Assembly: GCF_000755245.1 (NCBI RefSeq)
Contig: NZ_BBMP01000009.1
Coordinates: 1 to 64,000 of the forward strand
Source: Halococcus sediminicola
GTDB taxonomy: Archaea > Halobacteriota > Halobacteria > Halobacteriales > Halococcaceae
Direction: 5' to 3'
DNA length: 64,000 nt
Numbering within the stretch: position 1 is the first letter of the stretch; each line of letters opens with the position of its first letter. Shown one piece after another: positions 10,926-56,351 of this stretch. Under the pieces are notes generated by a model. That model was not told the origin of the DNA. It was given only the letters and a program-made list of their open reading frames with translations, and did no database searches. A program made the translations under genes and the position numbers.

Positions 10926-11024
10926 GGGTCTGGCAGCGAGCGTCAAACCGCCGTTACGCAACGGCTGTATGCGATTGTGATGCAGTCAGCGGTCCGTTGG
11001 GAACAAACTATTGAGTATTGCCAG

Positions 11025-11216: not shown

Positions 11217-11223
11217 GGTGTTT

Positions 11224-11385: not shown

Positions 11386-11477
11386 GGTCCTCACCTCACC
11401 GAGTATTTGGGTGCAAATGATTGTAAATCTCGTGGCCGTGCCGACAACCCTCCGGAATGAACTACTCCCAGCTCTTG

Positions 11478-11651
11478 TTACAAAGTCCCCGAAGATGACC
11501 ACTCAGCCTTGTCGAGGGTATACCCACCGCACTCAGGGCACACCTGCTGCTGGAATCTGAAGCGTGTCCCACAGCTCTTGCACTCATATGGATAGGAACC
11601 ACTACTTTCAGTCCTTGTGAATGCCGTTCTGACGCGTCCCAGAGTACTCAT
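11478..11651 (-). CDS. Small zinc-ribbon protein
   Basis: A 57-residue protein beginning MSTLGRVRTAFTRTESSGSY, with the knuckles YECKSCGTRFRF and QQVCPECGGYTLD. All four cysteines are present. It resembles the haloarchaeal family of short double-knuckle proteins and is distinct from the two genes downstream. The start ATG (11649-11651) is the first Met before the metal site. Confidence 0.75.
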   Translation of the reverse strand: MSTLGRVRTAFTRTESSGSYPYECKSCGTRFRFQQQVCPECGGYTLDKAEWSSSGTL

Positions 11652-11856
11652 TGTGAACCACTCTTGGGAAGTATTAACACACCACAAGATGAAAGTCTTT
11701 CGGTATTCTATAGTTATCAATTACTCAAGAAGTCCATTGGGAACGAGAGCATAGTTCTCTCGATATATCCCTCTCCGACGGAATTATAGCCACGCTGATC
11801 CCTCTGGAATACGAGATTCACTCGAAGCGGCGGCGTCCCGCCGAGGAGCGATACCT

Positions 11857-14248: not shown

Positions 14249-14300
14249 CTACCCACGACTGAAGTCGTGGGCTTATCGGTGGACTCCCGCTCTGGCCGAC
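14249..14300 (-). ncRNA. Putative omega RNA 3' end of TnpB element 2
   Basis: The right-end hairpin follows the tnpB stop at once, so the omega RNA would overlap the tnpB 3' end and finish here, with its guide read from bases left of 14249. Inferred from the general TnpB arrangement. Confidence 0.3.
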
Positions 14301-15505
14301 ACAGCGTCGGCAGGTGAATATTCACCGTTCGCGTTCACTGTCCCCGATTTTAGGGCCAGCTGACGATTGGCCCGTCCAGACCGAGACTTTTGCCCGGCCC
14401 GGACGTGTTTCCATGCAACGTTCTTCGCCGCGTTGTAATCGGCGTGAACCTCGTACCCACAGTTCCCACAGCAAAACTCATCGTCACCGTTCGGGCGATT
14501 CCCCTCAGCGGTGTGTCCGCACGCGGAACACCGCTGACTCGTGTACGCCGGGTTCACCTCTACCATGTCGATACCGAACGGTTCAGCCTTGTACTCAACG
14601 TACTCGAACAACTGGTTGAATGCCCCCTGCTGAAACTTCGAGGCGTTCGAGATGCGCTCTCGAATACCCGTCAGATTCTCGAAGGCGATTATTGAACACT
14701 CATGTTCAATAGCCTCTTGAACCAACTCTTTCGAGACGGTGTGCAAGAGGTCTTCCGACCATTGAGAGAATCGTTGACCGATGCCCTTGATGGTCCAGTG
14801 TGCCGATTCGGTTCCGGTCTGTTGCAGGTTTCCACGTAGCCGCTCGTAGGCATCGCGGCGGTGATTCAAAAGACCGCCCGACCAAAATCTGGCGGTCGAA
14901 GTGACCGCCAGATTCTCGATACCGAGATCCACGCCGAGGACCGAAGGGTGCTCGGCGGGTTCGGCATCGTCCATCTCCGTCTTTGCGCGGAGGTGGAGGT
15001 AAAACGAGCCGTTGCGGTAGTGAAGCGTTGCGCCATTGACCGAATACTTGTCGGATTCAACGTATTTGTCGAACGGTGTGCCGTCCGTCTCGGGTGGCAG
15101 GACGTACTCCGCTTCGACTCTACCGTCCGGGGTTGCAAGCGACGCCCAGTCGTCGTGAAGCGTCGCACTGCGGTTGTCGTAGTCGGCAAAATCGCTGGTG
15201 AACGTGGGCAAGGACGCTTTGTCGCCATCCTTCCAGCGTTCGACAACAGCTTTCAGGGCGTCAGCCGCCCGCGAGCGGGCGGCTTGGACGAGGTTTGCGT
15301 GCAAGTCGTCTGTTCGTTCTCGCACTTCGTCATAGGTGCGTTCGTGAAGGCATGACTTGCTCGTCTCGATGTAACCGTTCTCCTTACGGGAACGGCTGAC
15401 GACACAGTTGGCAGCGAAGCGAAACTCCTCGAACGTCGCATGGAGGGATTCGGCGTCACTGTCGCTCACGTTGAGATTCACCGGGATAGTGCGCTGAATC
15501 TCCAC
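14273..15505 (-). CDS. tnpB: TnpB RNA-guided nuclease
   Basis: A 410-residue protein that looks intact: RuvC Asp193 (GVDLGIEN), Glu276 (AFENLTGIRER) and Asp356 (HADYNAAKN), with zinc-ribbon cysteines 326, 329, 346 and 349. Initiation appears to be at GTG (15505). It belongs to a different subgroup from the 353-residue TnpB at 7221, judging by N-terminus and length. It is expected to cut DNA matching its omega RNA guide and to promote retention of the element. Confidence 0.93.
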   Translation of the reverse strand: MEIQRTIPVNLNVSDSDAESLHATFEEFRFAANCVVSRSRKENGYIETSKSCLHERTYDEVRERTDDLHANLVQAARSRAADALKAVVERWKDGDKASLPTFTSDFADYDNRSATLHDDWASLATPDGRVEAEYVLPPETDGTPFDKYVESDKYSVNGATLHYRNGSFYLHLRAKTEMDDAEPAEHPSVLGVDLGIENLAVTSTARFWSGGLLNHRRDAYERLRGNLQQTGTESAHWTIKGIGQRFSQWSEDLLHTVSKELVQEAIEHECSIIAFENLTGIRERISNASKFQQGAFNQLFEYVEYKAEPFGIDMVEVNPAYTSQRCSACGHTAEGNRPNGDDEFCCGNCGYEVHADYNAAKNVAWKHVRAGQKSRSGRANRQLALKSGTVNANGEYSPADAVSARAGVHR

Positions 15506-15563
15506 ACATCATATTATATCGTGAGTAACGTAATGGCTTTGGTGGGGGAGTCATCTGGTAGAC

Positions 15564-16310
15564 ATGCCGAATCAACTGAATGTGGCGGTGTACGCGCTCC
15601 TCCCACGAGTAAACTCGTGGGTTTCCGCGCTGGGAGAGCTATGGTACGAGATCGTCGTCCCGCTGGCGAAACTCGGTACCGGGAGCTATCTCCCGCCGGT
15701 AGCGGCTGTGTTCCTCGGCACGGGACTGTCGGTCGCCGCGACCGGTCGCCACGGCGCGATCCGTGGGCTCCGCATCGGCGGAATCGCCACCCTCGGCATC
15801 GTCTTGCTGTACGTGCTCGTCGGCGGGATCGTGCTCGTCGTCGGCCAGTGGGTACGCCCGTATCTCACGTCGCTCCAGCTGCTCGTCGGCCCGTTGTTTG
15901 TCGCCCTCGGCATCGCCTACTATCGGGGTATCTCGCCGTTGCAGGCCATCGAACTCCCCGAGCGCGGCAAGATATCCGACTCGGAGTTCTTCACCTTCGG
16001 CCTGCTCTACGGTGTCGGAAGTCTCGTCTGCAACCTCCCGGTGTTCCTCGGCGTCGTGCTCTCGTCGTTTTTTACGGGGAGTTTCCTCTCGGGACTGGCG
16101 GTCTTCGCCGCCTTCGCTGCCGGGGTGGGCACGCTGATGATCGGTCTGAGTGTTGTCGCGAGCCTCACTGAGGGATCGCTCTCGCTCGGGCGCTACGCCG
16201 CCCCGGTCCGATCGGTTTGCAGTGCTGCGTTCGTGCTCATCGGACTGTACGTGACGTGGTACACGCTCCGCTCTCTCGGCCATCTATCTGCCGGTGAAAT
16301 CATTGGATAG
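15564..16310 (+). CDS. CcdA/DsbD-like membrane protein with transposon-derived N-terminus
   Basis: A 248-residue protein with about six membrane helices, resembling the transmembrane electron carrier CcdA/DsbD (for example GLLYGVGSLVCNLPVFLGVV for one redox-helix region). The first cysteine-containing motif expected near the N-terminus (SPCxLP-like) is missing: the region reads GTGSYLPPVAAVF. Codons 1 to about 25 lie inside TnpB element 2, including its left-end hairpin at 15599-15621, so the native start was probably replaced. It may be a truncated relic or a working chimera. It stands at the head of the cytochrome c maturation cluster. Confidence 0.65.
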   Translation: MPNQLNVAVYALLPRVNSWVSALGELWYEIVVPLAKLGTGSYLPPVAAVFLGTGLSVAATGRHGAIRGLRIGGIATLGIVLLYVLVGGIVLVVGQWVRPYLTSLQLLVGPLFVALGIAYYRGISPLQAIELPERGKISDSEFFTFGLLYGVGSLVCNLPVFLGVVLSSFFTGSFLSGLAVFAAFAAGVGTLMIGLSVVASLTEGSLSLGRYAAPVRSVCSAAFVLIGLYVTWYTLRSLGHLSAGEIIG

Positions 16311-16333
16311 TTCAGCACGAACCGACGAGATCA

Positions 16334-16588
16334 TCACCGCTCACAGGAGCGGTCCATCCGGTACCGGACTACAAGACCTATCGCTCCAACTGTTAGTGCT
16401 GACACCAGTATCTGAACAAGACCGCCGCCGACGGCCGCTATCGCCCCGCTAGCAGCCGTCACCCCACTGGCGACGCTTACGGTGGGAGCCACGATACAGC
16501 AGAGACTGCCGACACCCGCCAGTCCGAGGAGCGACCACCGTGGCCCAGAATCGTCACTTGATATATCGTCCACGTCCGAATGATCCAT
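16334..16588 (-). CDS. Small two-helix membrane protein with CC motif
   Basis: An 84-residue protein: acidic N-terminus, then two hydrophobic helices. The first carries GSLCCIVAPT, a vicinal cysteine pair inside the membrane; the second carries GGGLVQILVSALTVGAIGLVV. A close paralogue lies at 25841-26113, also on the minus strand, so the two bracket the cytochrome maturation genes. The CC pair in the first helix recalls MerT-type metal transporters, but no similarity beyond that is claimed. Role unknown; redox or metal handling is possible. Confidence 0.75.
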   Translation of the reverse strand: MDHSDVDDISSDDSGPRWSLLGLAGVGSLCCIVAPTVSVASGVTAASGAIAAVGGGLVQILVSALTVGAIGLVVRYRMDRSCER

Positions 16589-16727
16589 TTCCTACCAGTT
16601 TGCGCGGTTGCAGAATGTATCTTTGGTTGTGCTGATTGAGGAAATATTGGTCTTGACGTCCACTAATCACTGACCTCGGCACAGTAAGCGGTTGCAGCGA
16701 CCGTTTCAAGACCTGACCGACACAGTA

Positions 16728-17126
16728 ATGGGTATCGTCTACCAATCGCTCTCAGTGCGTCGGAAGGCAAAACTCCTCGTGACGGTCGTGGGTATTCTCG
16801 TTCTGCTGGGGGTTCTCGGAGCGACTACCATCTCTGCATCGACAGAATTCGTCACGCCGACGAACGTTTCGGCCGAGCACAGCGGCGAGTGGGTCAACCT
16901 CGAAGGCAGAGTGGCTGACCTCGAAACGACTGGGCAACGAACCACGTTCAACGTAACCGAAGACAACCAATCTGTGCCTGTCACCCACGAGGGGACGCTT
17001 CCCGACACGATGCAGGAGGGCCGCATCGTCGTGGCGAAGGGACTGTACGAGGATGGACGACTTGAGGCGAGCCAACTGTCAGTACGTGCCCATGAAGGCT
17101 CCGAACGGCCAGCAAGTACCGAATGA
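16728..17126 (+). CDS. ccmE: CcmE-like heme chaperone
   Basis: A 132-residue protein with one N-terminal membrane anchor (LLVTVVGILVLLGVLGATTI) and a periplasm-facing OB-fold (GEWVNLEGRVADLET to GRIVVAKGLYEDGRLEASQL). CcmE accepts heme and hands it to apocytochrome c. The heme-binding site is HxxxY in bacteria and usually CxxxY in archaea; here the matching position reads VRAHEGSE, giving a His but no Tyr four residues on. ATG 16728 is chosen over an upstream TTG. The end overlaps ccmA by ATGA. Confidence 0.85.
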   Translation: MGIVYQSLSVRRKAKLLVTVVGILVLLGVLGATTISASTEFVTPTNVSAEHSGEWVNLEGRVADLETTGQRTTFNVTEDNQSVPVTHEGTLPDTMQEGRIVVAKGLYEDGRLEASQLSVRAHEGSERPASTE

Positions 17127-17848
17127 ACGACAACGGCTCCACGACACCGCCACTCCGGGCCGACCAGCTCGAAAAGTCTTATGGCTACTTCAGAGCGGTC
17201 GACGATGTCTCCTTCACTATCGATCGAGCCAGTACCGTCGGACTGTTCGGTCCTAACGGTGCAGGAAAGACCACTCTTCTCCGGATGCTCGCGGGCATTG
17301 TCGAACCGACGCGCGGACGGGTGTTCCTCAATGGTGTCGAGCGCACGACCGACTCACACGGTAGCGTCGGCGTGCTCACCCACGATTCAATGCTCTATGA
17401 TGCACTTACCGCCCGCGAGAACCTCCGATTTCACGCTCGGCTCCACGGCGTCGAGACCGTGGCTGAACGCTGTGAAACAGTTCTTGACACCGTTGGGCTT
17501 TCCCACCGCGCGAGCCATCGGCCTGATGAGTTCTCACACGGGCTTCGCAAGCGGCTATCGCTCGCTCGCGCATTAATTCATGACCCCGACATCCTGCTGC
17601 TCGATGAGCCATACGCGGGTCTCGACCGGCGCTCGATCGAGACTCTCTCGGACATCCTCAACGGGTTCGCCGACAGAACCGTAGTGCTTGCAACCCACGA
17701 CCTCGACAGGGGGTTCGAGCGCTGTACCCGCGCGCTCATCATTGCCGACGGACGTCTCGAAGCCGACCTTGCCACCGACTCGCTGTCGAGTACGGCGTTC
17801 GAACGCACTTACGAACAGGCCATCGATCTCACCGAGGCGAGATCCTGA
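17123..17848 (+). CDS. ccmA: CcmA, ATPase of the CcmABCD complex
   Basis: A 241-residue ABC ATPase. Walker A is GPNGAGKTT (residues 43-51), the signature region FSHGLRKRLSLARAL replaces the usual LSGGQ with a degenerate form, Walker B is DILLLDEPYAGLD, and the H-loop is VLATHD. In system I it powers release of heme-loaded CcmE from CcmC. Start overlaps ccmE by ATGA, and ccmB begins 6 bases after its stop, so the three form one translationally coupled unit. Confidence 0.92.
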   Translation: MNDNGSTTPPLRADQLEKSYGYFRAVDDVSFTIDRASTVGLFGPNGAGKTTLLRMLAGIVEPTRGRVFLNGVERTTDSHGSVGVLTHDSMLYDALTARENLRFHARLHGVETVAERCETVLDTVGLSHRASHRPDEFSHGLRKRLSLARALIHDPDILLLDEPYAGLDRRSIETLSDILNGFADRTVVLATHDLDRGFERCTRALIIADGRLEADLATDSLSSTAFERTYEQAIDLTEARS

Positions 17849-17854
17849 TTGTAG

Positions 17855-18535
17855 ATGGCTGTGAAAGGATTTCTCGCGGCAACCTATCATGTCATTCGTA
17901 AGGACATCGTTGCCGAACTCCGGACGAGACAGTTGACGACGACTGCAACGGTGTTCGGCCTGTTGGTCGTGCTCACGTTCGCCTTTAGCTTCGTCAAGAC
18001 ATTTGCAGACCCACGTATTGTTGGGCGCGGTGCGCTTTGGATCGCCTTTGTCTTCGCTGGCACCGTCGGCGTAAGCGAGACAATGGCCATCGAGGACGAA
18101 AACGACGCGCTCACCGGACTTCTGCTTGCGCCCGTCGACCGCTCGGCGGTCTATATCGGGAAGGTGCTGAGCACCACCATGTTCGTTCTCGCCGTCGATC
18201 TCGTCACCCTCGGTGCGGCAGTCGTCCTGCTCGGCTATCCGATTGCCGCAGAGATGCTGCTCCCACTTATCGGAGTGCTCGCGGTAGCGGCGTTCGGTTT
18301 TTCGGCCGTTGGCGTCGTGGTCGCGACGCTGACCGTGCGCTCTGGTCTCGGCCAACTTGCTATTCCCATCCTGCTCGTTCCGCTGGTTGTTCCAGTGCTG
18401 CTCTCGGGCGTTGAACTCACCGCCGCGCTCGCAAGCGGCGCACCGACAGGGGGATGGCTCCGGGTGCTGGCCGCCTACGCCGGCATCCTCTTTCTCGCGG
18501 GGCTTGCGACCTTCGAGTTCGTCGTCGAAGAATGA
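17855..18535 (+). CDS. ccmB: CcmB, membrane subunit of the CcmABCD complex
   Basis: A 226-residue protein with six predicted membrane helices and the CcmB hallmark around GALWIAFVFAGTVGVSETMA followed by LTGLLLAPVDRSAVYIGKV. It partners CcmA. Its stop codon touches the stop of the converging ccmD gene on the other strand with no bases between. Confidence 0.92.
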   Translation: MAVKGFLAATYHVIRKDIVAELRTRQLTTTATVFGLLVVLTFAFSFVKTFADPRIVGRGALWIAFVFAGTVGVSETMAIEDENDALTGLLLAPVDRSAVYIGKVLSTTMFVLAVDLVTLGAAVVLLGYPIAAEMLLPLIGVLAVAAFGFSAVGVVVATLTVRSGLGQLAIPILLVPLVVPVLLSGVELTAALASGAPTGGWLRVLAAYAGILFLAGLATFEFVVEE

Positions 18536-18652
18536 TTATCGGGTGTCTTCGAGCCGGCGTTCGAGACGGGTGATGCGCCGCTGCAAGTAGAGCACGTAGC
18601 CGAAAAAGGCGACGAACAGTGCGGTATATCCCGCAAGCAGCAGTGGTTCCAT
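18536..18652 (-). CDS. ccmD: CcmD, small subunit of the CcmABCD complex
   Basis: A 38-residue protein starting MEPLLLAGYTALFVAFFGYV: one membrane helix followed by a basic, amphipathic tail ending RITRLERRLEDTR. This is the form of CcmD, which tethers CcmE to CcmC and CcmB. The start lies 6 bases after the ccmC stop on the same strand, the expected neighbour. It is supported by position, size and topology, since CcmD sequences are poorly conserved. Confidence 0.85.
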   Translation of the reverse strand: MEPLLLAGYTALFVAFFGYVLYLQRRITRLERRLEDTR

Positions 18653-18658
18653 CCGTTG

Positions 18659-19435
18659 TCACCGCCTCGTCGCGTTGCGGACAAGTACCTTGTCTTCGAG
18701 TTCGTGGAGGTGAATTCGCAGGCCGAGCAGATAGATGTAGAGGAGGGTGGCCGCAACGAGTGAGACGACTAGCGTCAGAGGATCGATGTTTGCGCTGACA
18801 GTCGGATTACCGAGCGTCGTCTCGTGGAAGGTAGGCGTCCAGAGTCTGGTCGAAGCGTAGGAAATGGGCACCGTCACGAAACCGACGACCCCATAGACTG
18901 CCGCGTACCGCTCGTCGCCCTCGCGGTCGACCACCGAATACACGACGAGATAGCCGGCGTAAATGAACCAGACCACCAGAAAGGTGACGAGGCGCACGTC
19001 GGTCCACTCCCACCACGAGTTCCAGATGACCTTCCCCCACGCGCTGCCAAAGATCAGCGTGAGCGTTGCGAGGAGGAAGCCGAGTTCGCCGGCGCTGTGG
19101 GCGAGGCGACTCCAGAAACGACCCCGATAGCGCAAAAAGAGCGCACTCCCAACGAACGTCGTGGCGAGCGCGACCGAGGCAATCCACGCCAGCGCGATGT
19201 GCCAGTACGCGAGTAGGTTTCCGCTGTTCTCGACGCCATACATCGTCTCTGAGGCGACACCGAACACCAGCAGCATCGATGCAATGCCGAAGCCGAGCGT
19301 CCCCCACTTGACGAGGCGGCTGTCCATCACGCGGTGGAGTACGCTCACGACGCGCGCCACGACATAGCTGAACCGCCGGTTGCTCGTTCGTCCCCGCTCT
19401 TCCCTGCCTTTCGAATCCGATTGGTTCGTATCCAT
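18659..19435 (-). CDS. ccmC: CcmC, heme-handling membrane protein
   Basis: A 258-residue protein with about six membrane helices and the tryptophan-rich WWD motif WGKVIWNSWWEWTD (about residues 133-146). Two candidate heme-ligand histidines flank it: AYWHIALAW before the motif, and one in FHETTLGNP after it. CcmC loads heme onto CcmE. The start is taken at MDTNQSDS; an ATG four codons earlier would overlap the ccdA stop. Order on this strand is tsdA-like, ccdA, ccmC, ccmD. Confidence 0.92.
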   Translation of the reverse strand: MDTNQSDSKGREERGRTSNRRFSYVVARVVSVLHRVMDSRLVKWGTLGFGIASMLLVFGVASETMYGVENSGNLLAYWHIALAWIASVALATTFVGSALFLRYRGRFWSRLAHSAGELGFLLATLTLIFGSAWGKVIWNSWWEWTDVRLVTFLVVWFIYAGYLVVYSVVDREGDERYAAVYGVVGFVTVPISYASTRLWTPTFHETTLGNPTVSANIDPLTLVVSLVAATLLYIYLLGLRIHLHELEDKVLVRNATRR

Positions 19436-19437
19436 GA

Positions 19438-20124
19438 TCACACCCATTCGACGACCGATGCGAGCGCGAGTCTGTCGATATCGAAGAGGATCGCCACCCC
19501 CAACAGCACGAACGCATAGCCCGTTATCGTCCGAAAGCGTTCACCGGAGGCTCCCGTAGTCACGTCGAGCAACCGCCGTATGCTCCCCTGTCCGACGTAC
19601 GCGACGATCAACAGCGGTATCGAGAACCCGACGCCGTAGACGAACAGTAGCATCGCCCCCTGCCCGACGGTCGCCATCGCACCTACGTAGGCGAGCACGC
19701 CGCCGAGGATGGGTCCCACACACGGCAGCCAGATGGCTCCGAGGAAAACGCCCACGAGCAGACCGTTGCCGACCGGGTGGCGCTGCTCGTCGATACGCCC
19801 GCTGATGGCCGTCGCCCGTCCGGTGAGCCGGGAGCTGTATTTCGAGTAGAGTTCGTTCACGTCGTCGTCGGCCATCACGACGCCGAAGACGAGCATCCCG
19901 ACCGCAAACGGCGCGCGGATGGTATCGGGTGTTACCGACCCCATCAGGCCGGTGAGCACGCCGAGGGCGGTGAACGTTATTGTACTTCCCGTTACGATGG
20001 CGACCGGACGCAATGAGTGGCCGTTCGCGCCGACCACGAGGACAGGAATCATCGGCAGACAGCACGGCGTCAAAATCGTCAGCACGCCAGCGAGAAACAC
20101 CGCAGCGACCGTCGGATCGTCCAT
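19438..20124 (-). CDS. ccdA: CcdA, transmembrane thiol electron carrier
   Basis: A 228-residue protein with six helices. Redox cysteines appear in LTPCCLPMIP (first motif, with a double Cys) and LPCVGPILGG (second motif), as in CcdA/DsbD. It carries reducing equivalents from cytoplasmic thioredoxin to the outside, keeping CxxCH cysteines reduced for heme attachment. ATG 20122-20124 overlaps the stop of the cytochrome gene by one base (TGATG), so it is translationally coupled to it. Confidence 0.92.
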   Translation of the reverse strand: MDDPTVAAVFLAGVLTILTPCCLPMIPVLVVGANGHSLRPVAIVTGSTITFTALGVLTGLMGSVTPDTIRAPFAVGMLVFGVVMADDDVNELYSKYSSRLTGRATAISGRIDEQRHPVGNGLLVGVFLGAIWLPCVGPILGGVLAYVGAMATVGQGAMLLFVYGVGFSIPLLIVAYVGQGSIRRLLDVTTGASGERFRTITGYAFVLLGVAILFDIDRLALASVVEWV

Positions 20125-21581
20125 CACGTGGCCGTCGCTCGCCGTGTCTCGCTCGCTACCTGTCCGCGAGATTCGCGCTCGGCACCGTCGCCGTTCATCG
20201 CGGACGCCATCGTGTCTCGAATCGCTGCCGTGGCGTTTGACGAAGCGTTGCCGTCCATCGTCGTGTTGGCTGTACCAGTTGTCGATGCGTTTGCGGTGGC
20301 CGATGCATTCGTGGCATTGGCGGTCATGTTCGCTGTTGTGTTCCCGGTGGGCAGAATCCACGTCGTCTGCCACGAGCCGTTGGCCGATTCGTTCCGGAGC
20401 GGCTTATCGTAGCGCTTGACGTTGTTCGGAATGTCGCTCTGGTTGAGCGGCTCGGAGCCGATGGGGATATCCGCGAGCATGAGCTTCTTCGTCATCGGGT
20501 TCATGTCGTAGCCGAGTCGCTGCTGGGTCCGGTTGTAGTAGATGCCCTCGTCCGGCGATCCGCTGGCCTTCCAGTCTTTTGGCTGGCGTGGCAGGTGCGG
20601 GCGCTCATGCGCGTTGACGAAGCCGGCCACATCTTGAACGTCCTGCCAGTCGGTGAACGTGTGTGGTGAGCCGTAGGGCATGGCTTCACGGATGAAGCCG
20701 GCGGAGGTGTACAGCCGTCCCATCCCTGCCCCATCGTTGTAGGATTCGGGACCCCACAGCGGTGGATACTGTCCCTCCTCGCCCTGTCCATCGGCACCGT
20801 GGCATGATGCACAGTTCTGGAGGTAGAGGTCCGCTCCGCGGACGGGGTTGACTTTCGAGACGTTCGTCTCGCTTTCGCCCTCGGGCTTTTCGATGTGTCG
20901 CCAGTACGGAACACGACCGCTCGGCGTTCCTTTGTTGAGCCAGACGAGATACGACTCCATCGCCTGAATCTCACGGCTGTCGTATGCCGGAACACCCTCA
21001 GATGAGTTCGGGGCGTTCATGCTCCGGAGGAAGCAGCCCTGGATGCGCTGGCGCATGTCGCGCATCCGCTCGGTTCGGCCCGTCCACTCGGGGTAGCCCG
21101 CGGCGGTCCCGACCAGCGGTATCATATCGATATCTTGGCCGACCATCCCACTGACCGTCGGTAGGTCGCCGCCGCCGTGACAGTTTGCACACGAGAGGTC
21201 GTTGCCGACGTGTTCGGGTGCCTCCGCGGAGGTGTTGGCGAACAGCTCGCGCCCCCGTTTGACAAGTTCTCGCCGGTTTTCGTCTTCTGGAAGCGTCGAG
21301 TTATTCATCTGTTTCGGGACGAACTGGATCTCGTCGCCCGCTGTCTCGTTTTTGTACCGCATCCCCTGGTCGCGCAGATCTTTACTATACCACTTCTCGC
21401 CGCTCCAGTTGCCGGGGAGTTCCGTGATGTCTCCACCACCGCTCTCAGCACTTCCAATGCCACCGCCACCGAGGAATGCCAGCAGACCGTTGGCCGCGAA
21501 GGCGATGACCAGTGCGCCGATTATCGCTCCGACTGCCAATAGCGTCGGCTTGAGCAAAAGGGTCGAATCACCGTTACTCAT
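20124..21581 (-). CDS. tsdA: Membrane-anchored diheme cytochrome c, TsdA-type
   Basis: A 485-residue protein: N-terminal membrane anchor (residues 12-38), then two cytochrome c domains with CANCH (131-135) and CASCH (257-261). After heme 1 come YPEWTGR and RIQGCFLRSMN, the segment that in thiosulfate dehydrogenases (TsdA) carries the unusual Cys ligand of heme 1; Cys183 is the candidate. Met301 in REAMPYGSP is a likely ligand of heme 2. The family oxidises thiosulfate to tetrathionate or the reverse. The tail (from about 415) is rich in Asn, Thr and Ala with many N-glycosylation sites, a surface-protein trait. It is the only CxxCH protein in the window and lies amid its maturation genes. Confidence 0.85.
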   Translation of the reverse strand: MSNGDSTLLLKPTLLAVGAIIGALVIAFAANGLLAFLGGGGIGSAESGGGDITELPGNWSGEKWYSKDLRDQGMRYKNETAGDEIQFVPKQMNNSTLPEDENRRELVKRGRELFANTSAEAPEHVGNDLSCANCHGGGDLPTVSGMVGQDIDMIPLVGTAAGYPEWTGRTERMRDMRQRIQGCFLRSMNAPNSSEGVPAYDSREIQAMESYLVWLNKGTPSGRVPYWRHIEKPEGESETNVSKVNPVRGADLYLQNCASCHGADGQGEEGQYPPLWGPESYNDGAGMGRLYTSAGFIREAMPYGSPHTFTDWQDVQDVAGFVNAHERPHLPRQPKDWKASGSPDEGIYYNRTQQRLGYDMNPMTKKLMLADIPIGSEPLNQSDIPNNVKRYDKPLRNESANGSWQTTWILPTGNTTANMTANATNASATANASTTGTANTTMDGNASSNATAAIRDTMASAMNGDGAERESRGQVASETRRATAT

Positions 21582-21750
21582 CTCTTTGCCTCAGTAGTGT
21601 TCGATCGTATTCCATGACTTGTATCCTACTATCAGGGGCTGATATCCGCCGTTCGGACCCCATTTTAATAAATGTGTGCACTTTCCTCATTTCTCAACAA
21701 CACAAAGCGCACACGTTTTGTCGGTCGATACCAAACCCGACCAATAATCG
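21582..21750. promoter_or_regulatory. Divergent promoter between tsdA-type and thioredoxin operons
   Basis: A 169-base AT-richer gap between the two divergent operons. TTTTAATAAATG (21662-21673) is a TATA-like candidate. GTGTGC and GCACAC lie nearby as distant inverted halves (about 21673 and 21710), which could be regulator sites. No gene fits here. Confidence 0.4.
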
Positions 21751-22221
21751 ATGCGTCCACGGAAGCTACTGACGTTGGTCTTCATCGCGCTTCTGCTGAG
21801 CATTGGCTATCTATCGATGAACGCTGCACCCGTGCTGAGTGACGAGAACTTCTCCTACCACGGCGATACCGCATGGCGGACTGACTTTTCCGAGGCGAAG
21901 GAACTCGCAAACGAACAACATACCCCCATCGTCCTCTATTTCTGGACGACGTGGTGTACCTACTGCGAGGACTACAACGAGAACGTATATCCAAACGAAA
22001 CGGTGCAAAATCGACTCGATGACTTCGTGAAAGTAGCAGTAAATCTCGACGGCGATTCGTCGCTTCAGCAACAATACAACGTCAACTTCCCGCCCCAGCA
22101 CGTCATCATCACCCCGGATGGAGAGGAGCTCGTACGTATCACAGGCTATGCCGATCGTGAGGACTTCCTCAGCTACCTCGAAACGGCAAACAAGCGTGCC
22201 AACGGGACTGAGAGCACATGA
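21751..22221 (+). CDS. Secreted thioredoxin-like protein (CcmG role)
   Basis: A 156-residue protein with an N-terminal signal or anchor helix (residues 5-25) and a thioredoxin fold. The active site is WTTWCTYC with Cys69 and Cys72, and PPQHVI supplies the cis-proline loop. It probably reduces apocytochrome cysteines with electrons from CcdA, the job of CcmG in bacteria. The stop overlaps the ccmF start as ATGA. Confidence 0.88.
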   Translation: MRPRKLLTLVFIALLLSIGYLSMNAAPVLSDENFSYHGDTAWRTDFSEAKELANEQHTPIVLYFWTTWCTYCEDYNENVYPNETVQNRLDDFVKVAVNLDGDSSLQQQYNVNFPPQHVIITPDGEELVRITGYADREDFLSYLETANKRANGTEST

Positions 22222-24611
22222 ATCTCGGCACGGCTCTGCTCGCCCTTGCTTTTCTCGCGCTCACCAGTAGCACCCTCATCCTCTCGCGGGCGTATCTCGC
22301 CGACGACGAACACTACCTCGGCTACACCACACCGCTGGTCGGTATCGGTGCCACGCTATTGGTGAGCGCGCTCGTCCAACTCACCTACCAGTTCGTCGTC
22401 ACCGACTACTCGAACGCCTACGTCTGGCAGAACACCGCCGACTATCTCCCCATTCTCTATCGCATCACCGGCGTCTACGCCGCCAACAAAGGGTCGGTGC
22501 TGCTATGGGCGACCATCGTCGCCATCGTCGCACTCGTTGCCATCGCCGCTCGGGGCGTCCCCGACCGTCACACCCGATTAGTGTATGCGCTCACGACCGG
22601 CGTCGTAGCCTACTTCACCGCGATGCTCCTGTCCGACAGCCCCTTTGCACCCGCCCGCGGCGAGTTCCCGAACGCACCACCCGGATTCGTTCCCGCGAGC
22701 GGGCAGGGCCTCAACGCGCTGTTGGTTGATCCGTACATGGCCATCCACCCGCCAGTGATGTTCACCGCCTACGCGCTACTCACGATGCCATTTGCTATCG
22801 GGGCGGCCCACTTCGTCTCCGTCCTCCGCGGCGATGGAGGACTGTTCGCGGCGTGGCAGGGCACGCTCACCCGTTGGCTCCGACTCGGCTGGCTCTTTCT
22901 CACCGGGGCGGTCGCCCTCGGCGGATTCTGGTCGTACACGGTGCTCGGCTGGGGCGGCATTTGGGCGTGGGACCCCGTCGAGACGGCCATCCTAATTCCG
23001 TGGCTGTTTCTCACAGGAACGCTTCACGCCGTCACCAACTATCGCCCTGGCAAGCGCTACACCATCCTCGCGCCCGCGATGACCGCGACAGTGTTCGCGC
23101 TGGCCATCTACACCACCACCATCGTCCGTAGTGGCGTCTTCCGCAGCGTCCACTCCTTTGCCGATGGCGGCATCGGCATCGCCTTCCTCCTGTTGATGGC
23201 TGTGACAGCTGTTTTGGGTGTAGGCCTCCCGCTCGGCTACTGGGCCTGGAAGAACGATGACGCCGGACTCACCGATGGAAAGCTCCTCACGCGCTCGAAC
23301 CTGCTCCACCTCGCCGTCTTGCTGTTCGGCCTGCTCACGTTCGTCTCGCTGTGGGGACTCTCCTTCCCCGTCCTCAGAAACGCCATCACCGGTCTCGAAG
23401 TCGCCGTCGAGCCACGCTACTACAACCTCTGGAGCTACCCGCTCGTGCTCTCCGTCCTTCTCCTGTTAGGCTTCTACATGGACTTCGACGTCGAGGGCCG
23501 CCGCCGGAGCCTCGTTGGACTTGGCGTCTTTGCGGCTGCGACATTGCTCGCCACTTTCATCGCCCCCTCCGCAACGTGGCAACTATCGAGTCCGCGCCCG
23601 ACCGATGCGTTCGTCTATCGAATCATCGGGAGCGCGAGCGTGCTTTCGGCGCTGCCGCCGGTCGCCTACGTGATTCTCGCCATGCTCAAGCGCGGTCTCG
23701 TCCGCATCCCGGCGGCCGTCACCCGGAACGCGAAGTTGAAGGAATTGGGCATCATGCTGATACACGTCGCAGCAGCGCTACTCGTGCTCTCGCTGCCCTT
23801 CATGTATCTGTTCGGTGGACAGGCATCGGTGATGGCGGCCACCGGACAGGGGAACATCGATTCCTCAGCCCAGCAGGTCCCCGGCTCGGAGTATTCGATT
23901 CGCGTACTCAACAACACGACTAACGAGTTCCCCCGGGACCCCGACCTCTCGGACTACGCGCTCACCGCCGAGCAGGTCACCGCCCGCGGCGACACGCTCA
24001 ACGGCTCAGTACAGACGCTGTACGGCAACGTGACGGCTGTCCGGAACGGTCCACAGGCGACGGTCGCCCAGCTCGACGGCTCGCCCATTTGGGTCGGACT
24101 CGTCGACCGAAACGGGACGAACGTCTCGCTCCAGCCCGGCCAGTCCATCGCGGCGCGCGGGCAGTTGCTCTGGGAATTCGTCCCCCAGACTGACGCCGTG
24201 TTGCTCACCGGTCCCCAGACCATCGGCCCGGCGGCTGACCCACCCGAGAGCGTCGAGCCGACCCGCGTCATCGCTCGCGGTGCAGCGGTCGCGGTCTACG
24301 AGGACGGCGACCTGCTCACTAGTGGCGTCGTCGGCCAGCGCGAGTACGTCCGGCAAGGGGGATTGCAGGTCCGCGACGTGCTCATCGATCGCGGTCTCGT
24401 CAGCGACACCTACGTGATAGCCGGCGTCAGCGACGGCACGGCATCCATCACCATCAAACGGGTGCCGATGATGACGCTCCTGCGAGTCAGTCTCGTCCTT
24501 CTATTGTTGGGAATGGGGCTTGTCTTCATCTTCGACCCGCGTCACGGACTCGCCCAACGAACGAGTGCTGCACATTCACAGTCAACCGCCGATACGGAGG
24601 CTGCAGATTAA
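22218..24611 (+). CDS. ccmF: CcmF, cytochrome c heme lyase
   Basis: A 797-residue membrane protein with about 14 helices. The WWD heme-handling motif is WGGIWAWDPVE (residues 245-255), and AIHPPVMFTAY (about 175-185) holds a conserved His. A large outer domain follows from about residue 545 before a last helix near 765. CcmF attaches heme to CxxCH. Archaea use CcmF without CcmH, and none is seen here. It is co-transcribed with the thioredoxin-like gene and the surface protein that follows 2 bases later. Confidence 0.95.
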   Translation: MNLGTALLALAFLALTSSTLILSRAYLADDEHYLGYTTPLVGIGATLLVSALVQLTYQFVVTDYSNAYVWQNTADYLPILYRITGVYAANKGSVLLWATIVAIVALVAIAARGVPDRHTRLVYALTTGVVAYFTAMLLSDSPFAPARGEFPNAPPGFVPASGQGLNALLVDPYMAIHPPVMFTAYALLTMPFAIGAAHFVSVLRGDGGLFAAWQGTLTRWLRLGWLFLTGAVALGGFWSYTVLGWGGIWAWDPVETAILIPWLFLTGTLHAVTNYRPGKRYTILAPAMTATVFALAIYTTTIVRSGVFRSVHSFADGGIGIAFLLLMAVTAVLGVGLPLGYWAWKNDDAGLTDGKLLTRSNLLHLAVLLFGLLTFVSLWGLSFPVLRNAITGLEVAVEPRYYNLWSYPLVLSVLLLLGFYMDFDVEGRRRSLVGLGVFAAATLLATFIAPSATWQLSSPRPTDAFVYRIIGSASVLSALPPVAYVILAMLKRGLVRIPAAVTRNAKLKELGIMLIHVAAALLVLSLPFMYLFGGQASVMAATGQGNIDSSAQQVPGSEYSIRVLNNTTNEFPRDPDLSDYALTAEQVTARGDTLNGSVQTLYGNVTAVRNGPQATVAQLDGSPIWVGLVDRNGTNVSLQPGQSIAARGQLLWEFVPQTDAVLLTGPQTIGPAADPPESVEPTRVIARGAAVAVYEDGDLLTSGVVGQREYVRQGGLQVRDVLIDRGLVSDTYVIAGVSDGTASITIKRVPMMTLLRVSLVLLLLGMGLVFIFDPRHGLAQRTSAAHSQSTADTEAAD

Positions 24612-24613
24612 CA

Positions 24614-25825
24614 ATGAATACACGACTCACGCTCGCCATCCTGCTCGCCTGTCTTGTTCTCGTCCCCACCACCGCCGCAGCAGCAGAAATTTCAGGTACC
24701 GTCACGACTGACAACGGCTCCACCGACGGCGCGAATGTGACCATTGCCGCCGTCTCGGAGAACTTTACCGCCGTCGGCGACCCCGTGCGGACGAGCGTCT
24801 CGGGATCGTCCTTCGAGGCTGAAGTGCCCGACGCGCCGGTCCACGTCGTCCGCGTGGCGCGCGGTGGCGCGACCCACTATGCAGTGCTTCGGGAGGACAA
24901 CTCGACGACCATTGCGCTCAACTCGTCCATCACGGGCCGAGTCATCGATGACAACGGTGAGGGACGGGCGAACACGACTGTCGAGCTGGTCGACGAGAGC
25001 GGCTTTGCGGTCGACCGCGCGCTGACGGGCGACAACGGGCGCTTCGTATTCGACCCGGTCGAATCGAACGAGAGCTATCAGCTTCGGGTCTCGGCCGATG
25101 GAGTTCCGTATCAGGAGACCGTGAACACGACTGTTGGCGAGCGGAACGTGACCGTGACGACACCCGCGCCGACCGACGATATCTCTGTCCTCTCTGTTGC
25201 GAACCGCAGCCCCGCTGGCCACGTCCTGCAGGTGCTCGCGCCGCAAAACGAATCGGGCGTGCCGAGCATCGTTGAGACGATTTCGCTGCGAAACATGGGC
25301 GAACGTCCGTTCGTCGGCACCGTCTCGATCAACGTGCCGGCCGATGCCCAGCCATACTCGGGGATGGTTGACGGCGAGACTGCTCAGTACCGACGAGCGG
25401 AAGGGAGCGTTCGGCTCAACCTCACGGTGCCGGCAAACGGCACCACGCAGGCTGGCGTGGCCTACGACCTCCGGAATAGGAGCTTCGAGAAGACCCTCCA
25501 GCGGAACACGACACGGCTGGCAGTCGTCATGCAGGACTACAATGTCTCGGCAGTTGGGCATTCGGAAAATCTCCGAGTTGGCAATGCCTCGATTTCACTT
25601 CTCACCAACGACGAACCACTCCGAGCCAATGACACTATCAGTGTGAATCTCTCCGGCGCGCGGGCGGAAGGTCCGCATATGGACCTCGGAACGCCCAGCG
25701 CGGCTAACGCGAACGCGTCGGCACCCTCCGAGAGCAGTTCGCTCACGCCGTTTCCAACGGTACCGGTCTTCGGTGGTTTGGCCATGGTCGTTGTTGGCGG
25801 ACTGATTGCCTATCGGGTTTTCTGA
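24614..25825 (+). CDS. Secreted, C-terminally anchored protein with carboxypeptidase-regulatory-like folds
   Basis: A 403-residue protein with a signal peptide (residues 1-22), two beta-sandwich repeats of the carboxypeptidase regulatory type (EISGTVTTDNGSTDGANVTI, then ITGRVIDDNGEGRANTTVEL), many N-glycosylation sites and a final membrane helix (FGGLAMVVVGGLIAYRVF). There is no heme or metal motif. Its position as last gene of the thioredoxin-ccmF operon suggests an extracellular scaffold for the cytochrome or its maturation, but the role is unproven. Confidence 0.72.
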   Translation: MNTRLTLAILLACLVLVPTTAAAAEISGTVTTDNGSTDGANVTIAAVSENFTAVGDPVRTSVSGSSFEAEVPDAPVHVVRVARGGATHYAVLREDNSTTIALNSSITGRVIDDNGEGRANTTVELVDESGFAVDRALTGDNGRFVFDPVESNESYQLRVSADGVPYQETVNTTVGERNVTVTTPAPTDDISVLSVANRSPAGHVLQVLAPQNESGVPSIVETISLRNMGERPFVGTVSINVPADAQPYSGMVDGETAQYRRAEGSVRLNLTVPANGTTQAGVAYDLRNRSFEKTLQRNTTRLAVVMQDYNVSAVGHSENLRVGNASISLLTNDEPLRANDTISVNLSGARAEGPHMDLGTPSAANANASAPSESSSLTPFPTVPVFGGLAMVVVGGLIAYRVF

Positions 25826-25840
25826 TCTCGTTATCGCGTG

Positions 25841-26113
25841 CTATCGGTTAGAGCACCAAGTTTTCCGGAGCTGAACCCCGACGCCGATCACGCCGACCGT
25901 CAGTGCTGCCACGAGAATTTGGACGAAACCGCCGCCGACAGCGGCCGTCGCACCGCTGGCAGCTGTCACTCCCGTGGCAGCGCTCATTGTCGGGGCTACG
26001 ATACAGCAGAGGCTCACTACCCCACCCAGTCCGAGGATTGACCACCCAAGCTCCGAGTCCGTGTCCGCCTCCACATCCGCATCTGACGGCGCGTCTGCGT
26101 TTGAGGATTCCAT
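25841..26113 (-). CDS. Small two-helix membrane protein with CC motif (second copy)
   Basis: A 90-residue paralogue of the protein at 16334-16588. It has an acidic N-terminus, VSLCCIVAPTMSAATGVTAA in the first helix and GGGFVQILVAALTVGVIGVG in the second. Only the N-terminal acidic part and the last few residues differ much. The stop lies 15 bases from the end of the converging surface-protein gene. Two copies around one gene cluster suggest a duplication, or that both take part in the same pathway. Confidence 0.75.
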   Translation of the reverse strand: MESSNADAPSDADVEADTDSELGWSILGLGGVVSLCCIVAPTMSAATGVTAASGATAAVGGGFVQILVAALTVGVIGVGVQLRKTWCSNR

Positions 26114-26380: not shown

Positions 26381-26953
26381 TCAGACGAGAAGCTGAATAT
26401 CGGCATCGGCCATCCGCTGAAAGGCCGTCGCCGCGCCAACACCGACTTCGACACCATCGTAGAAATCGTCCGGATCGTAATCGAGCAGATCGATGGTCAT
26501 CTGACAGGCCTGCATCTCGACGCCACTCTCGAGCGAGGTCTCGACGAGCTCCTCGACGCTTGCGACGTCGTTGTCGGCGATGCGTCGTTCCATCATTTTC
26601 GCGGTTGCTCGGTCCATGCCCGGCAGCGCGGCGATGGCGTTCGGGATGGGCATGTTCGGGTTGCCGACCGAACTCAGACCCAGCTCCTGAGAGTGTTCCT
26701 CGTGGAGGATTTCGAGACCCCAGAACGTGTGAAACACCGTCACGTCCCAGCCGAAGGCCGCCGCCGTCGAGGCTAGGATGAGCGGCGGATAGGCCATGTC
26801 GAGACTACCCTTCGTAGCGATGATGACCATCTGCTGGCCGTTCTCCTCGCTTTTGACCGCTGCGAGTTCGTCTTCGAGTTCCTCGATACGCGCTTCGAGC
26901 GCCGCAGCGTTCTCAATCGATTCGCTGCCGGTCGATTTCGTTTCCGTACTCAT
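26381..26953 (-). CDS. DsrE/F/DrsH-like sulfur-relay protein
   Basis: A 190-residue protein. Residues 12-37 form a coiled coil (AALEARIEELEDELAAVKSE). A DsrE-type domain follows: MVIIATKGSLDMAYPPLILA at its start and a conserved Cys150 in MQACQMTIDL, the position that carries persulfide in relatives. It lies 61 bases downstream of tusA on the same strand and is probably its sulfur partner, as in bacterial and archaeal dsrE-tusA pairs linked to thiosulfate use. Confidence 0.88.
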   Translation of the reverse strand: MSTETKSTGSESIENAAALEARIEELEDELAAVKSEENGQQMVIIATKGSLDMAYPPLILASTAAAFGWDVTVFHTFWGLEILHEEHSQELGLSSVGNPNMPIPNAIAALPGMDRATAKMMERRIADNDVASVEELVETSLESGVEMQACQMTIDLLDYDPDDFYDGVEVGVGAATAFQRMADADIQLLV

Positions 26954-27014: not shown

Positions 27015-27272
27015 TCATTCGGTCTTGCGAACGTAGTGTTTGTAGACGTCCTCGCCACCCTGCTGACTTTCGATCTGGTCGACTAGCTCGACGCCGTCCG
27101 TCGTATCAGCCCAACCTTTGAGGTCGCTCATGCTGCCGGGGTCGGTCGCCAGCACTTCGAGAACCTCCTTGGGCTGGAGATCGTCGGTCGCGTCTTTGGT
27201 CTTGATGACTGGCATCGGACAGTTCTCGCCCTGTACGTCGAGCGTCGTCGTAGCGTCGTGTTCCGTACTCAT
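27015..27272 (-). CDS. tusA: TusA sulfur carrier
   Basis: An 85-residue protein with the TusA signature ENCPMPVIKTKDA; Cys18 in CPxP is the persulfide carrier. It moves sulfane sulfur between a donor such as a rhodanese and a DsrE-type acceptor in the cytoplasm. It is first gene of the leftward tusA-dsrE pair and divergent from the rhodanese-dioxygenase operon. Confidence 0.93.
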   Translation of the reverse strand: MSTEHDATTTLDVQGENCPMPVIKTKDATDDLQPKEVLEVLATDPGSMSDLKGWADTTDGVELVDQIESQQGGEDVYKHYVRKTE

Positions 27273-27305: not shown

Positions 27306-27450
27306 AGGCCCTAAAAGTGTTGCGGATATTGATCAATACATACACTGTGGTAAGTGAAACCGCCCTGTTCTGGGCTTTTCTCGCGACTCTGTGCTATTTT
27401 GGAAACTCACTATTGTTCTTCTTCCACCATACTATGGAAACCCTTATTTG
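27306..27450. promoter_or_regulatory. Divergent promoters and palindrome between tusA and the dioxygenase gene
   Basis: A perfect 12-base palindrome TATTGATCAATA lies at 27327-27338. A TATA-like element for tusA (minus strand CTTTTAGG, about 27311-27318) lies between it and the gene. For the rightward gene, CCCTTATTTG (about 27439-27448) lies about 28 bases ahead of ATG 27474. The palindrome is a candidate operator for tusA. Confidence 0.5.
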
Positions 27451-27473
27451 CCTCACTCCGGTATAGGCGAGTG

Positions 27474-28661
27474 ATGAGTGAACAGGAATTTCCCGAGCCA
27501 GACGTGGACGTAGAGTCCATCGAACCGGCTAAGCTGAAGGAACGAATCGACGACGGCGAAGACGTGTTCGTGCTCGACACGCGCGCGAACGAGGAGTTCG
27601 AGGAGTGGCACATCGACGGTGAGAGGGTCACTACCCACAACGTACCGTACTTCGAGTTCCTTCTCGGCGACGTCGACGAGGAAATCTTTGAGGGGATTCC
27701 CGAGGACAGGGAGGTAGTGGTGCTCTGTGCGAAGGGCGATTCGAGCGAGTACGTCGCCGGCCTCCTGAAAGAGCGCGATTATGATGTGAGCCACCTCGCG
27801 CGCGGCATGAACGGTTGGGCGGAACTCTACGAGTACCACGAACTCGATACCCAGGAGAATCTGACCATCGCTCAGTACCAACGGCCCTCCAGCGGCTGTC
27901 TCGCCTACCTCGTCGTCAGCGGCGACGAGGCCGCCGTGATCGATCCGCTGCGAGCGTTCGTCGGCACCTACGCACAGGATGCACGCGCACTCGGGGCAGA
28001 TCTGACCTACGCGCTCGACACGCACGTCCACGCCGACCACATCAGCGGCGTTCGCACCGTCACTGAAAACACCGAGGCGACGGCCGTCATTCCCCAGCCC
28101 GTCGTCGACCGCGGCGTCGAGTACGACATTGAGTACGAAACAGTCGCAGACGGTGATTCCATCTCGGTCGGTGAAACCCACATTGAGGTGCTTCATACGC
28201 CCGGCCACACCTCGGGGATGACTTCGTATCTGGTCGAGGACGTGCTGTTCGCCGGTGATGGCTTGTTCCTCGAGAGCGTCGCCCGACCGGATTTGGAGGA
28301 GGGTGCAGAGGGGGCAGCCGAGGCTGCGGGCGAGCTCTACGACACTCTCCAGCAGACGGTTCTCGAACTGCCCGACGACACCGTCGTCGCACCGGGACAT
28401 TTCAGCGACAACACCGAAACCGACGACGGAACCTATACCACACAGCTCGGTAATCTCGAAGAATCAATGGACGCGCTCGACCTAGACCGCGAGGAGTTCA
28501 TCGAGTTCATCCAATCGGACATGCCGCCACGGCCGTCGAATTACGAGGAGATCATCGCCACCAATCTCGGTGAGCGCGAGACGAGCGACGAGAAAGCCTT
28601 CGAACTCGAACAAGGGCCGAACAATTGTGCGGCCAGCCAAGACGCGCTAACGAGTGATTAG
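27474..28661 (+). CDS. Rhodanese-persulfide dioxygenase fusion (ETHE1-like)
   Basis: A 395-residue cytoplasmic protein. The N-terminal rhodanese domain (residues about 12-120) has Cys85 in VVVLCAKGDS. The metallo-beta-lactamase-fold domain that follows has HVHADH (184-189), HTPGHTSG (241-248), GDGLF with Asp262, RPDL and APGHF, the pattern of iron-dependent persulfide dioxygenases rather than beta-lactamases. It should pass sulfane sulfur to the iron site and oxidise it to sulfite. The ATG at 27474 is preferred because the TATA box sits about 28 bases ahead. The next gene starts right after its stop. Confidence 0.9.
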   Translation: MSEQEFPEPDVDVESIEPAKLKERIDDGEDVFVLDTRANEEFEEWHIDGERVTTHNVPYFEFLLGDVDEEIFEGIPEDREVVVLCAKGDSSEYVAGLLKERDYDVSHLARGMNGWAELYEYHELDTQENLTIAQYQRPSSGCLAYLVVSGDEAAVIDPLRAFVGTYAQDARALGADLTYALDTHVHADHISGVRTVTENTEATAVIPQPVVDRGVEYDIEYETVADGDSISVGETHIEVLHTPGHTSGMTSYLVEDVLFAGDGLFLESVARPDLEEGAEGAAEAAGELYDTLQQTVLELPDDTVVAPGHFSDNTETDDGTYTTQLGNLEESMDALDLDREEFIEFIQSDMPPRPSNYEEIIATNLGERETSDEKAFELEQGPNNCAASQDALTSD

Positions 28662-29168
28662 ATGATTGGACCGGAGCTACTGACGATACTGGGCCAACTC
28701 CCCACCGGACTCTTCCCGCGCGGCATCAGCCAGTACGCCGTCGGTGGCGTACTCATCGGGCTTGGAGTGTCGACTATCTACCTCGGGACGGCCATCACGC
28801 CCGGCGCGAGCACGTTCTTCGAATCTACCCTCTCGTATTTCTCGGAAATTCCCCGGTTCAACCGGGCGAAATACCTCGCCACCCGTGACTGGCGGATCGT
28901 CTTCACGCTGAGCATGGTCGCCGGTGCGAGCATCTATGCGCTCACGCTCGGCGGTGGAGGCTGGACGACAGACGTGGGAGCGTGGCGGCTGCTCGCTGGC
29001 GGCGTGCTCGTCGGCATCGGCACGCGACTCGGTAAGGGCTGTACCTCCGGGCACGGCATCAACGGCATCGCGTCGTTATCTGGGACTTCCCTGGCAAATG
29101 TCGCGACCTTCATGCTGGCGGCAATCGGCGTTGCACTCTCAATGCAAGCGCTTGGAGTTTCGCCATGA
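28662..29168 (+). CDS. YeeE/YedE-type transporter, first half
   Basis: A 168-residue membrane protein with four or five helices and the family signature GTRLGKGCTSGHGINGIA, with Cys127. Relatives (TsuA, PmpA) move thiosulfate or sulfur compounds through a cysteine-lined path. It directly follows the dioxygenase stop and overlaps the second half by ATGA, so the two probably form one transporter. Confidence 0.9.
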   Translation: MIGPELLTILGQLPTGLFPRGISQYAVGGVLIGLGVSTIYLGTAITPGASTFFESTLSYFSEIPRFNRAKYLATRDWRIVFTLSMVAGASIYALTLGGGGWTTDVGAWRLLAGGVLVGIGTRLGKGCTSGHGINGIASLSGTSLANVATFMLAAIGVALSMQALGVSP

Positions 29169-29632
29169 GCACAAACGACTCCCGCAACCCGCTGTTCATG
29201 CCATTAATCGTTCTCGGTGGCGCGCTGTTTGGCTTCGGACTCGCCTACAGCGGGATGGCCAAACCTGAGATCGTCCTGGATTTCCTCCAGCTACAAGACT
29301 GGGGACTCGTGTTCGTGATGGGCGGTGCAGCGGCCGTCACTGGAACAGTTATCACAGTTGCAACGCGGTATCTCAGCCGTGCACCGCTCACCGGCGAGCG
29401 GTATGGCAAGCGTGAGAAGACCTTCGACCGAAGTGTGCTCCTCGGTGGAGTGATCTTCGGTGTCGGGTGGGGAATTTCGGGACTTTGTCCTGGTTCGGCG
29501 TATGCCAGCCTCGGCATCGGGAATTTCCCCATCTTGATCGGGATCGCCGGGATGTTCCTCGGTGCGTATGCACAGGGGTACTGGCGTTCCTATCGAGAGA
29601 ACACTACTGGAACGGCCACACCAAGTGACTGA
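29165..29632 (+). CDS. YeeE/YedE-type transporter, second half
   Basis: A 155-residue membrane protein with the second signature WGISGLCPGSAYASLG, Cys108. Single-chain YeeE proteins contain both cysteine motifs; here they are split over two genes, a common arrangement (PmpA/PmpB-like). Last gene of the dioxygenase operon. Confidence 0.9.
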   Translation: MSTNDSRNPLFMPLIVLGGALFGFGLAYSGMAKPEIVLDFLQLQDWGLVFVMGGAAAVTGTVITVATRYLSRAPLTGERYGKREKTFDRSVLLGGVIFGVGWGISGLCPGSAYASLGIGNFPILIGIAGMFLGAYAQGYWRSYRENTTGTATPSD

Positions 29633-55525: not shown

Positions 55526-55546
55526 GGCTCGGATCTGTCGTGTCGG

Positions 55547-55990: not shown

Positions 55991-56059
55991 GGCGTGTCTC
56001 GGCGTTCAACACCCGGTCGCGCTCTTGTGTAAGGATATCTGAATCGCTATCGAACACCG

Positions 56060-56350: not shown

Positions 56351-56351
56351 T

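Follow-up and report, generated by a model that had tools for sequence, protein, structure and literature searches.

In haloarchaea, the association of TsdA-type enzymes with cytochrome c maturation (ccm) genes was reported for five organisms by Kletzin et al. in 2015. In that paper (PMC4429474) these enzymes form cluster 28, proteins of 368-485 residues with operon-like ccm linkage. TsdA catalysis proceeds through a heme-ligating Cys that forms an S-thiosulfonate, with two Arg residues and a Ser contributing to activity (Cys123, Arg109, Arg119, and Ser127 in the precursor numbering of PMC4423706), and the TsdA reaction can proceed either way (PMC5146829). On the maturation side, the Ccm of Methanosarcina acetivorans consists of CcmABCEF without CcmH or CcmI (PMC9084895), and in the same paper Gupta et al. 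(2022) describe the CcmE motif CXXXY as universal in archaea and sequenced archaea as devoid of CcmD.

The DNA analyzed here (the window) is a stretch of 64,000 nucleotides from Halococcus sediminicola. It is part of an 85-kb contig in a 3.76-Mb draft genome (95.5% complete), and the nearest relatives of its sequences are those of Halococcus morrhuae, a member of the same genus. The window encodes a 485-residue TsdA of the cluster 28 enzyme family, again with operon-like ccm linkage. Compared with cluster 28 as published, this copy differs in its plasmid-like contig and in the sulfur module next to it. Because Kletzin et al. had already described the arrangement in 2015, its weight as a discovery is reduced. 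What goes beyond that work is a class-wide survey, the sulfur module, a link to strain HArc-T, and a His-type CcmE together with CcmD; the TsdA/MauG partition, the sulfur neighbors, CcmD, and the CcmE motif were not found described in the accessible part of PMC4429474. We consider it very likely that the locus is a horizontally acquired, plasmid-borne sulfur-oxidation island, the TsdA of which is matured by its own Ccm set and converts thiosulfate to tetrathionate.

The island spans 15645-25826. A CarboxypepD_reg protein closes the conserved unit at 25826; beyond it, sulfur genes extend to about 29.6 kb. The features are as follows.

14273-15644, minus strand: TnpB-type (IS200/IS605 family) transposon (Pfam OrfB_IS605, Cas12f1-like TNB)
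15645-16310, plus strand: truncated second CcdA-like membrane protein, lacking the N-terminal part and its APC motif (intact H. morrhuae homologue)
16728-17126, plus strand: CcmE heme chaperone, ORF may start at TTG 16692 (PF03100, 47 bits; alignment to 8ce8_E and 1sr3_A)
17123-17848, plus strand: CcmA ABC ATPase (TIGR01189, 127.5 bits, just under cut-off; Walker A and B motifs)
17855-18535, plus strand: CcmB (PF03379, 68.7 bits)
18536-18652, minus strand: CcmD of the CcmD_alt family, 38 residues (TIGR04391, 36.5 bits, cut-off 24)
18659-19447, minus strand: CcmC (PF01578, TIGR01191; expected histidines and tryptophan-rich motif)
19438-20121, minus strand: CcdA, intact thiol-electron carrier (PF02683, 71 bits; LTPCC and WLPC motifs; start overlaps the TsdA stop)
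20124-21581, minus strand: TsdA-type membrane-anchored diheme cytochrome c (PF21342, PF00034; E 2e-41 to 4v2k and 5lo9)
21751-22221, plus strand: membrane-anchored thioredoxin-like protein with CTYC, probable apocytochrome reductant (PF13098)
22218-24611, plus strand: CcmF heme lyase, 797 residues (PF01578, 89 bits; NrfE/CcmF family, 199 bits)
24614-25825, plus strand: CarboxypepD_reg protein, secreted and C-terminally anchored (PF13620)
26381-26953, minus strand: DsrE2-like protein (PF13686, 163.7 bits)
27015-27272, minus strand: TusA sulfur carrier (PF01206, 67 bits)
27354-28661, plus strand: rhodanese plus metallo-beta-lactamase-fold protein, persulfide-dioxygenase-like (PF00581, PF00753)
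28662-29168, plus strand: YeeE/YedE-type sulfur transporter half (PF04143; homologue annotated as YeeE/YedE thiosulfate transporter)
29165-29632, plus strand: DUF6691/YeeE-type second half (PF20398, PF04143)

The full CcmA-F set plus CcdA and thioredoxin that the original prediction had placed around one diheme cytochrome was recovered in its entirety by Pfam/NCBIfam profiles and motifs. Note that reading P0006 of CcdA has a spurious N-terminal extension. The genes fall into three transcript groups, within each of which the junctions overlap or nearly overlap: a minus-strand group reading TsdA-CcdA-CcmC-CcmD down from 21581 (TsdA/CcdA junction TGATG), a plus-strand group CcmE-CcmA-CcmB at 16728-18535 (CcmE/CcmA junction ATGA), and a plus-strand group thioredoxin-CcmF-CarboxypepD_reg at 21751-25825 (thioredoxin/CcmF junction ATGA). 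Because these overlaps occur inside the groups, the translational coupling to TsdA that had been proposed for the whole maturation set holds for CcdA, CcmC, and CcmD, and does not extend to CcmE, CcmA, CcmB, and CcmF, which belong to the other groups.

At the left edge the truncated CcdA-like gene abuts the end of the TnpB-type element, which has a hairpin (CCCACGAGTAAACTCGTGGG) near 15603-15622, and the ORF at 15564-16310 begins inside that end. The match to H. morrhuae sets in abruptly at 15645, and the intact homologue there continues upstream with about 100 more N-terminal residues that include a CcdA-type APC motif; the 15645-16310 gene is therefore a remnant, the 5' end of which was replaced. 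In H. morrhuae, Halobacterium noricense, and Halorussus halophilus the genes beside this homologue encode a small membrane protein and a protein resembling DsbA. Of the two CcdA genes of the window, the functional one is that at 19438-20121 behind TsdA, not the left-edge copy. Both the transposon-cut gene and the lack of the H. morrhuae-type DsbA-like and small membrane genes within the window could be read as signs that the plasmid is decaying and that the entire island on it no longer functions. We regard that reading as highly improbable, because the core genes are all open with intact motifs, TsdA shares 96% identity with its H. morrhuae counterpart, and the other CcdA is intact. At both ends the island is flanked by a small membrane protein; the two are related and share a CCIVAPT motif (16334-16588 and 25841-26113, both on the minus strand), neither of which has a Pfam or NCBIfam match.

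TsdA has two c-type heme sites, CANCH (21191-21177) and CASCH (20813-20799), and residues 101-332 match the solved TsdA structures 4v2k and 5lo9. By sequence it shares the two-domain diheme layout and the catalytic Cys, two Arg, and Ser of A. vinosum TsdA and Marichromatium purpuratum TsdBA (4v2k, 4wq7-4wqe, 5lo9). It differs from both in being archaeal, in having an N-terminal membrane anchor and a C-terminal extension of about 150 residues, and in having Ala in place of the heme 2 residue Lys208. In pairwise alignment Cys96, Arg82, Arg92, and Ser100 of the A. vinosum enzyme fall on Cys183 (codon 21035-21033), Arg169, Arg179, and Ser187, and all four are invariant in 26 haloarchaeal TsdA sequences as well as in a second set of 20. 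Cys183 is thus the predicted sixth ligand of heme 1, with the catalytic Arg, Arg, and Ser conserved. Met209 corresponds to Met301, which is invariant, and Lys208 to Ala300; heme 2 ligation is predicted to be His/Met. The N-terminus is a hydrophobic anchor in Halococcus TsdA, and the Natrialbales homologues have a lipobox-like start (LAGC). Hence three proposals made from the DNA alone stand: the TsdA identity, by its two-domain homology to solved thiosulfate dehydrogenases (E 2e-41); Cys183 as a possible heme ligand, by its exact alignment with the catalytic ligand Cys96; and the membrane anchoring, by the hydrophobic N-terminal segment. The AlphaFold model of TsdA had a mean pLDDT of 39 and no fold search was based on it, and a DNA-pattern scan for CxxCH gave no more matches than chance or a reversed control.

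The heme 1 domain also matches a joint SoxA/TsdA family and the SoxA model, and a structural similarity to SoxA is remarked upon in the Kletzin 2015 paper (PMC4429474), so the protein might be a subunit of the SoxA kind that acts on a carrier of the SoxYZ type, and not a TsdA working on its own. This is scarcely credible given that the SoxA model scores far below its cut-off (42 of 110 bits), that the match to TsdA covers two domains, and that no Sox genes were found among the neighbors.

CcmA, CcmB, CcmC, CcmE, and CcmF, the components of a System I apparatus, are all present. CcmF has His177, His270, His312, and His516 together with the motif WGGIWAWDP. Pfam and NCBIfam searches found neither CcmH nor CcmI among the island proteins, as published for archaea, and a free-standing thioredoxin and CcdA are present. 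In lacking CcmH and CcmI the set resembles that of M. acetivorans (PMC9084895), from which it differs in having CcmD, a CcmF that is a single 797-residue protein, clustered genes, and a CcmE with His rather than Cys and without the Tyr. The CcmE His codon is 17091-17093, and in an ungapped alignment to 8ce8_E the residue, His134 when counted from TTG 16692, falls on E. coli His130. It is His in 42 of 42 haloarchaeal CcmE sequences, none of which has a Cys in the C-terminal 80 residues or a Tyr at +4. Haloarchaeal CcmE proteins thus lack the CXXXY motif that marks archaeal-type Ccm in PMC9084895. CcmD, the absence of which is the other mark of that type, is present: the NCBIfam model CcmD_alt (TIGR04391) scored above cut-off in four of four proteins tested and a related small CcmD-like ORF lies in 32 of 42 loci, although the 38-residue island protein does not reach the cut-off of the classical Pfam CcmD model. 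As judged from these sequences, the His-type CcmE without the +4 Tyr and the CcmD contradict both generalizations of PMC9084895 and correct the published picture of archaeal cytochrome c maturation. Because the Tyr of the classical motif is missing from CcmE, heme loading by this set is only putative.

The whole genome encodes one CcmE and one CcmC/CcmF pair, and TsdA is its sole protein above the Pfam Cytochrom_C cut-off. No MauG was found in this 95.5%-complete genome, and the search for a second chromosomal ccm set that had been suggested as a check on the original prediction was run on the whole genome and likewise found none; at that completeness a missed gene cannot be fully excluded. 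The possibility that the genes are a scrambled relic of a chromosomal ccm locus was rejected, as the core genes are intact, no other set was found, and the gene blocks are conserved across haloarchaea. Since a whole heme-attachment machine is kept for a single enzyme, the island offers a clean genetic system in which to find the essential Ccm parts.

The same pairing was seen across the class. In a survey of 391 genomes, in which TsdA was counted by PF21342 family search, 40 encode CcmE and 26 encode TsdA, and all 26 are among the 40 (hypergeometric chance about 1e-30, without correction for relatedness). MauG is present in 14 of the 40, and 39 of the 40 encode TsdA or MauG, one genome (G037) encoding both. 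The two are also physically linked: of 28 TsdA matches, 26 are no more than about 10 kb away from ccmE, the exceptions being in G037 and in G021, which has fragmented contigs. TsdA-ccm pairing is therefore nearly a rule in haloarchaea, although these counts ignore shared ancestry. That most haloarchaea lack Ccm, so that the enzyme would be useful only with the whole maturation set, would explain the linkage; Haloferax, for example, is listed by Kletzin et al. (2015) as having no Ccm genes. The loci of MauG-type peroxidases (cluster 29) resemble the island in having a homologous ccm set beside one diheme cytochrome, whereas the enzyme is different and CcmF is only about 43% identical. The CarboxypepD_reg protein is encoded in 26 of 26 TsdA loci and in none of the other ccm loci. 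Somewhat in preference to other readings, we favor a distinct haloarchaeal System I variant with a His-type CcmE that lacks the Tyr of HXXXY/CXXXY, an alternative CcmD, and no CcmH or CcmI, which would serve a single diheme enzyme in each cell, either TsdA or MauG, and be inherited together with it as a cassette, CarboxypepD_reg being a TsdA-specific accessory.

The one CcmE genome with neither TsdA nor MauG (G346) has multiheme cytochromes beside ccm. Its locus (L062) encodes CxxCH proteins with eight hemes (6529-8316) and four hemes (10846-11733), whereas a 2015 report gave multiheme cytochromes as missing from haloarchaea.

The setting of the island is that of mobile DNA. Profile searches of its contig found Orc1/Cdc6, ParA, and TraD/VirB4-like genes, giving replication, partition, and transfer functions. 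The GC content is 0.577 for the contig and 0.615 for the island versus 0.654-0.663 for three samples of the chromosome (a fourth, taken from a different contig, gave 0.533), and by gene content and GC the contig is plasmid-like. The island is 94% identical to H. morrhuae over 10.2 kb, two chromosomal samples giving 81-88%. Distribution is sporadic, with CcmE in only two of nine genomes of the genus Halococcus, and relatives of the island are carried by complete plasmids of Halorussus and Halobacterium. Plasmid genes, low GC, and sporadic distribution agree with the early suggestion that the maturation set travels with its substrate on mobile DNA. In the TsdA tree all haloarchaeal sequences group with full support with two halophilic Bacteroidota/Rhodothermota sequences; we claim no direction of transfer, because the placement of the bacterial pair is unresolved and the outgroup branches are long. 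In the halophilic bacterium Salinivenus, TsdA is 54% identical, whereas CcmF (about 30%) and CcmC (about 26%) are distant and on other contigs, indicating that transfer between domains involved the enzyme but not its machinery. Our reading is that the kit would be superfluous where the host already has Ccm, whereas a haloarchaeon would need it.

In H. morrhuae the sulfur gene group again lies close to the island, as it does on plasmids from Halobacterium noricense and from Halorussus halophilus, and the Halorussus plasmid record names a YeeE/YedE thiosulfate transporter and a TauE/SafE-family sulfite exporter. The rhodanese/metallo-beta-lactamase protein has a weak match to the sulfur transferase/dioxygenase model NF040641, and its true start is probably downstream of 27354. 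A phenotype is available for one carrier of the island. 'Natronorubrum thiooxidans' HArc-T, a name that a 2021 paper attributes to Sorokin et al., is cited for thiosulfate oxidation to tetrathionate, as the title of Sorokin 2005 states, and its genome carries a TsdA-ccm island (L083). Thiosulfate:quinone oxidoreductase was considered as the source of this phenotype and discarded, since no DoxA was found in 12 genomes including that of HArc-T (G329). The island thus gives a testable gene set for haloarchaeal thiosulfate oxidation, a phenotype reported in 2005 in a strain that carries it.

The alternative that TsdA acts mainly as a tetrathionate reductase, providing an anaerobic electron acceptor as in Campylobacter jejuni, draws on the predicted His/Met heme 2 and on Ala300, a position at which the oxidative enzyme of A. 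vinosum has Lys208. His/Met ligation of heme 2 also occurs in the tetrathionate reductase of C. jejuni (PMC5146829), and therefore the sequence leaves the direction of reaction unsettled. However, such residues alone give no direction, and the adjoining sulfur-handling and transport genes together with the reported HArc-T phenotype favor oxidation, making a mainly reductive role unlikely.

In the favored oxidative reading, apo-TsdA would be exported and held by its N-terminal helix, CcdA and thioredoxin would hold its CxxCH cysteines reduced, CcmABCD would put heme onto CcmE, and CcmF would then attach the two hemes. The mature enzyme would bind thiosulfate at heme 1 (His135/Cys183) and could couple two thiosulfates to tetrathionate by way of an S-thiosulfonate on Cys183. 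The two electrons would leave through heme 2 (His261/Met301) for a soluble carrier, which is probably halocyanin, and go on to the respiratory chain. A halocyanin gene adjoins ccmCD in Halobellus, Halobacterium, Halorussus, and Halomicrococcus loci; none lies next to the island within this window.

Other genes of the contig and other copies of the island were also noted. A large conjugation-like block at 51255-62814 (minus strand) encodes a TraD-like protein, a VirB4/HerA-like protein that ends in a helix-hairpin-helix, and two further proteins (459 and 731 residues) that match no Pfam family. An ArsP/SaoE-type permease (34104-35063) and an ACR3 arsenite efflux transporter (36147-37310) are encoded on the plus strand. 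Finally, the whole TsdA-ccm island is doubled within one genome in two cases, on the Halobacterium noricense plasmid (L026 and L027) and in G325 (L055 and L059).
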